DNA of 64,000 nt, taken from Natronococcus occultus SP4. GTDB taxonomy: Archaea > Halobacteriota > Halobacteria > Halobacteriales > Natrialbaceae. Each line of letters begins with the position of its first letter. The first letter of the stretch is position 1. A model generated the notes under the pieces. The model was not told the DNA's origin. It saw only the letters and a program-made list of their open reading frames with translations, and ran no database searches. The DNA is taken from positions 1,913,001 through 1,977,000 of the forward strand of contig NC_019974.1 of the NCBI RefSeq assembly GCF_000328685.1, read 5' to 3'. Positions 46,552 to 49,975 of the stretch are shown in pieces. A program made the position numbers and the translations under genes.

Positions 46552-47484
46552 ATGAATCGGTGGCTCCGTGAGCGCGTGGACGCGGCCTACGAGCAGCTTC
46601 TCTCGCGGGAGATCGACGGTGTGCCAACCCACGTCGCCGTGATTCAGGATGGAAACCGTCGGTACGCGCGCCGACAGGGATCGGACGCGACCGACGGCCA
46701 CCGCGAGGGCGCCGAGACGACCGAGGACGTCCTCGAGTGGTGCCAGGAGGTCGGCGTCGAGGAGCTGACCCTCTACGCGTTCTCGACGGAGAACTTCGAG
46801 CGGCCGGCCGAGGAGCGCGAGGCGCTGTACGATCTGCTCTGCGAGAAGCTCCGTGAGTTCGCCGACGCCGAACGGGTCCACGAGAACGGCGTCAAGATCC
46901 GCGCGCTCGGTGCGGTCGAGCGACTGCCCAAGCGGGTCCGAGAGGCCGTCGACTACGCGGAGGACCGGACCCGCGACTACGACCGCTTCGTGTTGAACAT
47001 CGCGCTGGCCTACGGGGGCCGCTCGGAGCTCCTGGAGGCCGCCCGCGGCGTCGCTGAGGACGTCGAGTCCGGCGCGGTCGACCCCGAGGAGATCGACGTA
47101 GAGACGATCGAGCGCCGGCTGTACGACGAGCCGGTCCGTGACGTCGACCTGATTATCCGGACCGGAGGCGACGAGCGCACCTCGAACTTCCTGCCCTGGC
47201 ACGCCAACGGCAACGAGGCCGCGGTCTTTTTCTGTACGCCTTACTGGCCCGAGTTCTCGAAGCCCGACTTCCTCCGTGGGATCCGCACGTACGAACACCG
47301 CCAGGAGTCCTGGCGGCGAACCCGCGCTCGACGGGCGCTTGCCCTGCTGGGCGCGATGAGCGACCGCGAACTCGCCGAGGCTCGCTCGATCGTCGACCGG
47401 TTCCGGGACTCGCTGCCGACCGCCGAACAGCCCGACGAGGACGAACTCGAGGGGGCCGACTCGAGCGGACCCGCCGCGGACTGA
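46552..47484 (+). CDS. uppS: Cis-prenyltransferase, catalytic-type (UppS-like A)
   Basis: A 310-residue protein. HVAVIQDGNRRYARRQG carries the catalytic Asp33 of the family's DGN motif, FSTENFERPAEE is the substrate-binding stretch, and DLIIRTGGDERTSNFLPW is the IRTGGE region, followed by NEAAVFF with the metal-binding Glu. It condenses isopentenyl diphosphate into long cis-polyprenyl chains. The C-terminus (DEDELEGADSSGPAAD) lacks the RXG ending of self-sufficient enzymes. ATG at 46552 is chosen well inside a longer open frame. Confidence 0.92.
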   Translation: MNRWLRERVDAAYEQLLSREIDGVPTHVAVIQDGNRRYARRQGSDATDGHREGAETTEDVLEWCQEVGVEELTLYAFSTENFERPAEEREALYDLLCEKLREFADAERVHENGVKIRALGAVERLPKRVREAVDYAEDRTRDYDRFVLNIALAYGGRSELLEAARGVAEDVESGAVDPEEIDVETIERRLYDEPVRDVDLIIRTGGDERTSNFLPWHANGNEAAVFFCTPYWPEFSKPDFLRGIRTYEHRQESWRRTRARRALALLGAMSDRELAEARSIVDRFRDSLPTAEQPDEDELEGADSSGPAAD

Positions 47485-47529
47485 GCAGTGTCTCGAAACC
47501 TACAATCGGACGGCGTCCCGAGAGCCGGT

Positions 47530-47754
47530 ATGGACCGCCAGCTCGCCGCCGGCCTCGCCGCGACGGCGACCGGAGTCGCCGCCGTTCTGGTGCTCGGAGC
47601 CGCCGGCGTGCTCCGTCACCCCCAGGCCGCCGCTGACCACACCCAGCCAGCCGAGTTTCTCGCGATCGGCGGGAGCCTCCTGTTGGTGACCGTCGGCGTC
47701 CTCGTGACACTGTTTGCCTACGTCGAGTTTCCGGAGCCCGACGTCGATCCGTAA
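47530..47754 (+). CDS. Two-helix small membrane protein
   Basis: A 74-residue protein with two membrane helices (about 4-26 and 42-64) and a polar loop (HPQAAADHTQPAE). ATG at 47530 is used. It lies 45 bases after the uppS stop on the same strand, so it may be cotranscribed with it. No family is recognised. Confidence 0.65.
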   Translation: MDRQLAAGLAATATGVAAVLVLGAAGVLRHPQAAADHTQPAEFLAIGGSLLLVTVGVLVTLFAYVEFPEPDVDP

Positions 47755-47826
47755 CCCGCCCGAAGCTGGCTGGCAGCCCGAACCGACCGCAGCGACTTTT
47801 GCTCGTCCGGAGCGAGCACCGGGACG

Positions 47827-48498
47827 ATGGAAGCGAAGCTCGAGACCGAGTCGCTCACGAGAACGGTATCGGGCGAGACGATCGTCGAGGACGTCTCGCT
47901 CCGCGTCGGGGGGTCGACGGTCCTCGCGGTCGTCGGCTCCTCGGGGGCGGGGAAGTCCTCGTTCCTCCGGCTGCTCAACCGACTGGACGAACCGACCGAC
48001 GGCACGGTGTTTCTCGACGGCGTCGACTACCGCGAGATCGATCCCCAGACACTGCGTCGTCGGATCGGGCTCGTTCCCCAGGAGTCGGCGCTCCGGCCGG
48101 GGACCGTCCGAGAGAACGTCGCCGCGAGCGATCGGATCCGGGGCGAACCGGTCGACGACGAGCGCGTCGCGGCGCTGCTCGACCGAGTCCAGTTGCCGAA
48201 CGCGGCGGAACGGGACGTCGAGGACCTCTCCGGCGGCCAGCAACAGCGCGTCGCGGTCGCCCGGACCCTCTACGTCGATCCCGAGGTGCTCCTACTCGAC
48301 GAGCCGACCTCCCACCTCGATTCGGAGACGGAAGCGCGGGTCGAGGAGCTCCTCGGCGACCTGATCCGAACCGAGGGGTTGACCTGCGTCCTCGTCACCC
48401 ACGACACCGCCCAGGCCGAGCGCCTCGCCGACCGCGTCGCCGAGTTCGAGGACGGACGGGTCGTCGCCGAGGGACGGCCCGAGGAGGTTCTCGCGTGA
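47827..48498 (+). CDS. ABC transporter ATP-binding protein (FetA-like)
   Basis: A 223-residue ATPase: VVGSSGAGKSSFLRLL (Walker A), LSGGQQQRVAVARTL (signature) and LLLDEPTSHLD (Walker B). The pair with the next gene matches the FetAB/YbbLM arrangement, thought to export iron or to protect from oxidative stress. The last base overlap (GTGA) with the permease gene shows translational coupling. Confidence 0.92.
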   Translation: MEAKLETESLTRTVSGETIVEDVSLRVGGSTVLAVVGSSGAGKSSFLRLLNRLDEPTDGTVFLDGVDYREIDPQTLRRRIGLVPQESALRPGTVRENVAASDRIRGEPVDDERVAALLDRVQLPNAAERDVEDLSGGQQQRVAVARTLYVDPEVLLLDEPTSHLDSETEARVEELLGDLIRTEGLTCVLVTHDTAQAERLADRVAEFEDGRVVAEGRPEEVLA

Positions 48499-49319
48499 CC
48501 GATCCGGCCCTGGAGCGCGTCCTCGAGCACGCGGCCGACCCGGTCCTCGTCACGGGGTTCGTCCAGATCGCGATCGCGGCGGCGCTGACGGCGGTCGTCC
48601 TCGGAGTTGTCTACGTCCGCCAGCTCGGGTTCGAGCGGGAGGTCGTCACAATGTCCGTTCGCGGGCTGATCCAGGTGGTCGCCGCCGGTGCGGTGATCAG
48701 TCTTCTGCTGGCGGCCCACCTCGCCTGGGCGGCGGTCGCCCTCGCGGTCATGATCGTCGTCGGCGCCTACATCTCCTACAAGCGCGGGACCGCGCTACCG
48801 GGCGTGTTCAAGACGTCGCTGGCGTCGATCGGGTTCGGAGCCGGGCTGACGATCGTGGCGATGGCCGCCGCGGGCGCCATCGAGATGACGATGCGGGACT
48901 TGCTGGTCATCGGGAGCATGGTCATCGCCAACTCGATGCAGACGAACTCGCTCGCCCTCGACCGGTTTACCGGGGAGATCGCCTCGAACCGGGCGGAGAT
49001 CGAGGCGCTGTTGAGCGTCGGCGCCTCGCCGGACGAAGCCATCACCGAGTACGTCTCGACGAGCGTCTACGCAGCGTTGATCCCGACGGTCGACGCGATC
49101 AAGAGTCTCGGCGTTGTCAAGATCCCGGGGCTAATGGCGGGGATGATCATCGCCGGCGAGAACCCGATCTACGCCGCCCAGTACCAGTTCGCGATCATGC
49201 TGATGCTCTTCGCTGCGGGCGGGCTCACCGTCGTCGCCAACACCGTCCTGCTCAGCCGACGGGTGTTCACCGACGCGAAACAGCTCGACGAGGAGGTCGT
49301 CGACGCGATCGACAACTGA
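48495..49319 (+). CDS. FetB-like (UPF0014) permease
   Basis: A 274-residue membrane protein: VYVRQLGFEREVVTMSVRGL, KRGTALPGVFKTSLASIGFG and SMVIANSMQTNSLALDRF are the conserved stretches of the UPF0014/YbbM family, and PGLMAGMIIAGENPIYAAQY follows. GTG at 48495 overlaps the ATPase stop by four bases. The pair is flanked by the two cis-prenyltransferase genes, so a lipid-linked role is a possible alternative to metal export. Confidence 0.9.
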   Translation: MTDPALERVLEHAADPVLVTGFVQIAIAAALTAVVLGVVYVRQLGFEREVVTMSVRGLIQVVAAGAVISLLLAAHLAWAAVALAVMIVVGAYISYKRGTALPGVFKTSLASIGFGAGLTIVAMAAAGAIEMTMRDLLVIGSMVIANSMQTNSLALDRFTGEIASNRAEIEALLSVGASPDEAITEYVSTSVYAALIPTVDAIKSLGVVKIPGLMAGMIIAGENPIYAAQYQFAIMLMLFAAGGLTVVANTVLLSRRVFTDAKQLDEEVVDAIDN

Positions 49320-49342
49320 GACGGTCCGCCGTACCGATCGAA

Positions 49343-49975
49343 CTACCGACCGAACCGTCGCGAGCGATTGCAGTACTCCCGGACCGCACGCAGGAAGTCC
49401 CGCTCGCGGAAGTCCCGCCAGTTGACGTCGGTGAAGTAGAGTTCGGAGTAGACCGACTGCCAGATCATGAAATCGGAGAGGCGTTCGGCGCCCGTCTTGA
49501 TCACCAGATCGGGCTCGGAGGGAAAGACGAGGTGGTTCTCGACGCGCTCGTCGTTGATCTCGTCGGGCTCGAGCTCGCCCGCGTCGACGCTCTCGGCCAG
49601 GGTGCGAACCGCGGCCGTGAACTCGTGTTTCCCGCCCAGACCGATCCCGATCTGGATCGGAGCGTCGGCCTGACTCGGATCGTCAGGGGTTCGGACGGCG
49701 ATCTCCCGGGGGGCGTCGACGGTCTCGAGCTCGCGGCGCAGGGCCGGGATCGCGTCGGCGTCGAGGACGCTGACGTAGACGGTCACCCGTCGGGCGTACT
49801 CGAAGGCCCACTCGAAAAAATCCGCGAGCGTCTCGTAGGCACCGCGCTCGAGCAGGTCCCGTTCGGTGATCACGAGCGCGACGTGGTCGGGACTCTCGGC
49901 GTCGTGGCGGGCGATACGGACGGAGAGGTAGCGCTCGTACAGACCCACGCCCTCCCGTTTCCGGGCCGATGGCAT
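49343..49975 (-). CDS. Cis-prenyltransferase homologue lacking the catalytic Asp (B subunit-like)
   Basis: A 210-residue protein aligned to UppS throughout. At the DGN position it reads HVALVITERDLLERG; counting from the shared His, the catalytic Asp is Thr37. Later family positions remain: IQIGIGLGGKHEFTAAVRTL, DLVIKTGAERLSDFMIWQ and SVYSELYFTDVNW (metal-binding Glu), and the last residues are RRFGR, a C-terminal RXG. In eukaryotes the NgBR/Nus1 subunit has lost the Asp and keeps RXG while DHDDS keeps the Asp; the pairing with 46552-47484 looks alike. A role as non-catalytic partner is inference. Confidence 0.85.
   Translation of the reverse strand: MPSARKREGVGLYERYLSVRIARHDAESPDHVALVITERDLLERGAYETLADFFEWAFEYARRVTVYVSVLDADAIPALRRELETVDAPREIAVRTPDDPSQADAPIQIGIGLGGKHEFTAAVRTLAESVDAGELEPDEINDERVENHLVFPSEPDLVIKTGAERLSDFMIWQSVYSELYFTDVNWRDFRERDFLRAVREYCNRSRRFGR

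Follow-up and report, generated by a model that had tools for sequence, protein, structure and literature searches.

Two cis-prenyltransferase homologues in the Natronococcus occultus window

The window analysed here is a 64,000-nucleotide stretch of the haloarchaeon Natronococcus occultus SP4 (NC_019974.1, positions 1,913,001 to 1,977,000), and our subject is a pair of genes within it, A and B, coding for cis-prenyltransferase homologues considered as candidate subunits of one enzyme. The genome (4.31 Mb, three contigs) carries exactly two PF01255 genes, both inside the window. An earlier note on this DNA, made from the sequence alone, had placed two open reading frames (ORFs) here, and both were recovered at those positions. 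An artefact of frame or annotation was ruled out for either gene, both ORFs being clean and conserved in relatives. The genes and their diagnostic codons are the following.

46552..47484, plus strand: subunit A, putative catalytic cis-prenyltransferase with a DHDDS-like role, 310 residues, ATG at 46552 and stop codon ending at 47484 (PF01255, predicted fold and motif map)
46648..46650, plus strand: codon of Asp33 of A in the DGN motif, equivalent to D26 of E. coli UppS (sequence; Asp in 140/140 A proteins with that column)
49343..49975, minus strand: subunit B, RXG-bearing cis-prenyltransferase homologue, putatively non-catalytic with an NgBR-like role, 210 residues (PF01255, distribution and predicted fold)
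49865..49867, minus strand: codon of Thr37 of B, at the catalytic Asp site (motif map; Thr, Ser or Ala in 59/59 haloarchaeal B proteins with that column)
49442..49444, minus strand: codon of Glu178 of B, equivalent to E213 of E. coli UppS (Glu in 99/99 B and 0/145 A proteins)
49349..49357, minus strand: codons of R207-F208-G209 of B, the C-terminal RXG (Gly in 99/99 B proteins; Arg, twice replaced by Lys, in 99/99)

The PF01255 match of A covered profile positions 1-216 of 219 with 234.7 bits (Pfam cut-off 27) and ended three positions short of the profile end, at the place of the RXG motif; the cis-prenyltransferase domain is followed by a C-terminal extension without RXG. The match of B covered positions 114-219 of 219 with 93.2 bits against the same cut-off, its N-terminal half falling below the Pfam match, and its RXG stands one residue from the C-terminus as in human NgBR. 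The RXG falls in the final three profile positions, so the ends of the PF01255 matches alone tell A from B.

Active-site residues are partitioned between A and B

The residues of both proteins were mapped on the E. coli UppS numbering. A keeps D33 (D26), N35 (N28), R37 (R30), H50 (H43), S78 (S71), N81 (N74), R84 (R77), R203 (R194) and R209 (R200), together with S211, and at the remaining sites shows A224 for E213, S253 for R242 and R255 for G244. At the donor sites, B shows T37 for D26, R39 for N28, L41 for R30, V70 for S71, A73 for N74 and I76 for R77; it retains R165, S167, E178 (E213), R207 (R242) and G209 (G244), with a C-terminal end R-F-G-R. This mapping confirmed the reading of the earlier note, in which A kept the catalytic Asp33 and ended without RXG, while B had Thr at the Asp position, a later metal-binding Glu and the end RRFGR.

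We then took a census of 145 A proteins, 99 B proteins, five proteins of the Methanosarcina mazei MM_0014 type (hereafter C) and 50 single-type archaeal proteins. Asp was present at D26 in all 140 A proteins with that column and in 50/50 singles, and in none of the haloarchaeal B proteins. Wherever the columns were present, all A and single-type proteins had the D26/N28/R30/S71/N74/R77 set, which B lacked as a set. The RXG with its C-terminal Gly was found in 99/99 B proteins and 48/50 singles, and at the end of none of the 145 A tails listed. The E213 column likewise held Glu in every B protein and in 48/50 singles and in no A protein, with the caveat that in haloarchaeal A the loop is longer by two residues and a Glu (E222) stands two positions ahead of this column, so that the loss of E213 in haloarchaeal A depends on the alignment; in A of other Halobacteriota lineages the Glu two residues ahead is often absent. 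For E213 and the C-terminal RXG, we counted zero exceptions to the partition among the 145 A and 99 B proteins; recurring in this way across Halobacteriota, the partition is neither chance nor a quirk of a single genome.

A homodimeric UppS has the DGN Asp and the C-terminal RXG in one chain, and neither protein shows this combination, A being without RXG and B without DGN. The pattern expected of a heteromeric enzyme, with the DGN set and no RXG in one chain and the RXG and no DGN set in the other, is the one found in A and B.

Predicted structures

AlphaFold2 single-chain models were built from the A and B alignments, with mean predicted local distance difference test (pLDDT) scores of 86.5 for A and 82.2 for B. 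The A model has the cis-prenyltransferase fold (Z 29.9 against E. coli UppS over 224 residues, and Z 29.6 against human DHDDS). The same fold was found in the B model over residues 6-210 (Z 14.7 over 193 residues, against DHDDS and UppS-family chains); the surroundings of E178 were of low confidence in this model of B alone, with pLDDT below 50 at residues 173-178. Among the entries listed for the B model, each represented by a single row, there was no NgBR chain, and we draw no conclusion from this.

A and B occur together in nearly all Halobacteria genomes

B was present in 194/194 Halobacteria genomes, representing 65/65 genera, and the catalytic type in 193/194, the exception being one assembly in 120 contigs; both types occurred together in 193 of the 194. 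The earlier note had named the absence of B from relatives that keep A as evidence against pairing, and no such absence was met among these genomes. In a wider draw of 197 Halobacteriota genomes, 191 had PF01255, and 187 of these had two copies or more; of the four single-copy genomes, three are 83-89% complete and one is 95% complete. In a subset of 39 genomes, with one to a few per family, each had one catalytic A and one short RXG-bearing B, to which some added a gene of a third type or another A copy.

Archaea outside Halobacteriota, which were reached through named loci and comprised Thorarchaeota, Lokiarchaeota, Bathyarchaeota, Thaumarchaeota, Thermoplasmatota, Methanocaldococcus, Thermococci, Hadesarchaea and DPANN, nearly all had one gene spanning profile positions 1-219, RXG included. 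Among 129 Asgard genomes searched, a PF01255 match was found in 120 and a B-type match in none; full-length genes reached profile positions 218-219, and the partial matches resembled contig fragments or weak matches. The split is thus a trait of Halobacteriota, because outside the phylum there is essentially one full-length, RXG-bearing gene.

Two variations were observed within the phylum. Some haloarchaea (six loci) have two catalytic A-type genes and one B gene. Yeast has a similar arrangement, Rer2 and Srt1 sharing Nus1. In one family (f17), PF01255 was absent from 5/5 sampled genomes; A and B seem to have been lost together there.

Gene order and neighbours

A and B were convergent and no more than 10 kb apart in 92 of the 110 Halobacteria genomes with both coordinates listed, and 52 of these pairs were separated by 500 bp or less. 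In the rest of Halobacteriota, 18 of 25 same-contig pairs were convergent within 10 kb; these gene-order lists consist of best-scoring matches and were not drawn at random. In the Methanosarcina-like genomes examined, A and B lay far apart or on separate contigs. The window has the convergent order with about 1.9 kb between the two genes, and the interval 47488-49319 (plus strand) holds an 88-residue ORF, an ABC ATPase and a UPF0014/FetB-like permease. None of the other loci examined showed this ABC/UPF0014 pair between A and B.

On its other side, B is adjacent to a further gene:

50097..51422, plus strand: DUF92 (PF01940) membrane protein, head-to-head with B (PF01940, 204 bits)

At least 67 of the 99 B loci, including loci outside Halobacteria, have a DUF92 gene, and in at least 58 it stands head-to-head upstream of B; these counts are lower bounds, as many B loci had only 1.5-2 kb of flank. 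The isoprenoid-phosphate kinase VTE6 of plants belongs to the DUF92 family. From this family and from the neighbourhood, a polyprenyl- or dolichyl-(phosphate) kinase-like partner with a role in polyprenyl phosphate metabolism is plausible.

Trees and origin of the split

The human and yeast sequences in the trees were compared with chains of the Protein Data Bank (PDB) one residue at a time, and NgBR and Nus1 were entered with the PDB letters. A careful maximum-likelihood tree gave A as one clade (support 100/94) and B as one clade (99/100); A was again one clade (99/97) in a second data set. C made up a third, separate clade. The A and B clades each take in two Methanosarcina-like genomes. 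A single duplication with complementary losses, at the base of Halobacteriota, is the most likely origin of the split.

The position of the eukaryotic chains was less stable. A quick tree placed NgBR with B with a support of 75; the careful tree disagrees, human NgBR and yeast Nus1 grouping together and apart from B on very long branches. Uniting B with NgBR and Nus1 was not rejected by the approximately unbiased test (p 0.29, with these very long branches). DHDDS came near the base of the archaeal sequences, and its union with A was not rejected either (p 0.60 in the quick analysis, p 0.07 in the careful one). The string LVITE at the dead site, identical in B of the window and in human NgBR, was considered as a proof of homology and given little weight, since the string is not the same in yeast Nus1 or in other B proteins of Halobacteriota. 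A single ancestral split behind both A/B and DHDDS/NgBR, with the dolichol synthase of eukaryotes coming from a Halobacteriota-like archaeon and not from the Asgard host, appears improbable to us. Independent origins of the archaeal and eukaryotic splits are the simpler reading, because the Asgard genomes are without B-type genes.

A and B as probable subunits of one heteromeric enzyme

We conclude, with a probability of about 0.87, that A and B are two subunits of one heteromeric cis-prenyltransferase making the polyprenyl diphosphate precursor of the dolichyl-phosphate glycan carrier. The earlier note had proposed a two-subunit archaeal polyprenyl synthase, and this proposal is now well supported by the residue partition, the co-occurrence, the gene linkage and the precedent of M. 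mazei. In the proposed mechanism, A would bind the allylic donor and Mg2+ via the DGN Asp and hold the elongation tunnel, and B, its own active site lost, would serve as dimer partner. The R-x-G tail of B would cross the dimer interface and complete the isopentenyl-diphosphate site of A, and the product would be of C55-C60, by analogy with the dolichyl phosphate carriers of Haloferax volcanii, which are C55-C60 (PMC3827465). Our analysis shows how the residues are divided between A and B, what folds are predicted for them, and that their genes co-occur across the phylum and are linked; from this we infer physical A:B pairing, a shared active site, a tail acting in trans, the product and essentiality.

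Several points weigh against this conclusion. The two genes are convergent and so are not co-transcribed, and in the window A is separated from B by about 1.9 kb with the small ORF and the ABC/UPF0014 pair. Sequences, gene order and single-chain models form its basis, and both pairing and activity are deduced from them. Human DHDDS alone is a weakly active homodimer, about 400-fold lower in activity (PMC7573591), and MM_0014 of M. mazei, which has no RXG and ends in TLGG, works as a homodimer making C25-40 products (PMC8131916); from these two cases, A may not strictly need B. They are also what would favour a different arrangement, in which A is a homodimer without RXG, like MM_0014, and B an accessory regulator or membrane tether outside the active site. 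We hold this to be unlikely. A ends in a variable hydrophilic extension and has no TLGG-like tail, the M. mazei pair was reported as heteromeric (as related in PMC8131916), and the two features missing from A, RXG and E213, are conserved in all 99 B proteins, a conservation for which a mere tether would have no use. A itself was ruled out as an MM_0014-type enzyme, A and C being separate clades with different tails.

The loss of the whole donor site in B, with an N-terminal half below the Pfam match, could instead mark a degenerate paralogue with an unrelated role, for example the binding of a lipid or diphosphate in another pathway, its place near A being a coincidence of neighbourhood. Such a role is very improbable given the phylum-wide co-occurrence of A and B, their joint absence from all five f17 genomes, their convergent linkage and the strict conservation in B of the residues that would act in trans.

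A two-subunit archaeal enzyme is already known from M. mazei (reported in 2019, as cited in PMC8131916). What our analysis adds is the extent across the phylum, the linkage of the genes and the observation that E213 goes with RXG, as in DHDDS/NgBR. A literature search found no report on the haloarchaeal A/B pair, most subscription papers being outside its reach. A report on a single species thus becomes a trait of a whole archaeal phylum, including genetically tractable haloarchaea in which both genes can be deleted and mutated. An annotation of both A and B as "UppS" would mislead.

A short insert in Asgard cis-prenyltransferase genes

Six cis-prenyltransferase genes of the Asgard draw (L371, L372, L373, L375, L376 and L377; 1135-1214, minus strand) carry a 30-nucleotide in-frame insert with stop codons. 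It lies exactly within the catalytic DGN motif, for example DG/I-stop-M-stop-LPLLNV/NRRWA, and at least one carrier is a Lokiarchaeota genome. The L371 copy folds as a bulge-helix-bulge, with two 3-nucleotide bulges around a 3-bp helix and an internal hairpin, and 5 of the 16 pairs of the fold were changed on both sides, well above slid controls. The insert resembles an archaeal mRNA intron, though a very short one, with passage by translational bypass as the rival explanation. To our knowledge, no such short intron in the DGN motif is known from the literature.

Comparison with known cis-prenyltransferases

The closest known system is MM_0618/MM_1083 of M. mazei, a heteromeric cis-prenyltransferase making C45-50 products (Emi et al. 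2019, as cited in PMC8131916 and PMC8904820). The paralogues named in this species are MM_0014, with the tail TLGG, MM_0618 and MM_1083 (PMC8131916). In the Methanosarcina genome G383 we found three genes, a single A, a single B and one of the third type. DITLGG is the tail of the C proteins in Methanosarcina-like genomes, so MM_0618 and MM_1083 are the A and B types by elimination. Both systems consist of two cis-prenyltransferase paralogues, concern a glycosyl carrier lipid and belong to the same phylum. They differ in that most haloarchaeal genes are convergent neighbours whereas the Methanosarcina-like ones are far apart or on separate contigs.

MM_0014 shares with A the superfamily and the loss of RXG, and is a third paralogue in some Halobacteriota genomes. 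Unlike A, its type forms a separate clade, ends in DITLGG and has Asp at the E213 column, and MM_0014 prenylates alcohols (PMC8131916). An MM_0014-like protein ending in DATLGG was also observed outside Halobacteriota, in a Methanomassiliicoccus genome (locus L380), beside an ordinary one-piece UppS. The homodimeric UppS of bacteria and other archaea has the same fold and active-site residues, but its chains are identical and carry DGN and RXG together.

The likeness to human DHDDS/NgBR, which the earlier note had drawn, holds residue by residue. DHDDS keeps DGN, has Cys at E213 and no RXG, like A; NgBR has Thr at the Asp site, Glu at E213 and the end RLGK, that is R-x-G and one further residue, like B. 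Yeast Nus1 also has Glu at E213. In the human enzyme, the C-terminal end of NgBR reaches over the dimer interface into the active site of DHDDS, which it completes; the backbone nitrogens of NgBR L291 and G292 bind the phosphate of the isopentenyl-diphosphate site, and the R290H and G292A variants have lower activity (PMC7573591). NgBR is unlike B in its membrane anchor and in a far more diverged C-terminal half, and B is closer to the C-terminal halves of bacterial UppS (profile E 1e-34) than to NgBR (6e-10).

Because E213 sits in the accessory chain of both pairs (Glu in NgBR and Nus1, Cys in DHDDS), we infer that it serves the tail-bearing chain; a literature search on the role of E213 gave nothing usable. 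If the splits were independent, archaea and eukaryotes would have divided the same homodimeric enzyme alike, with the donor site in one chain and the RXG tail and E213 in the other, and E213 would be predicted to belong functionally with the trans-acting tail and not with the donor site.

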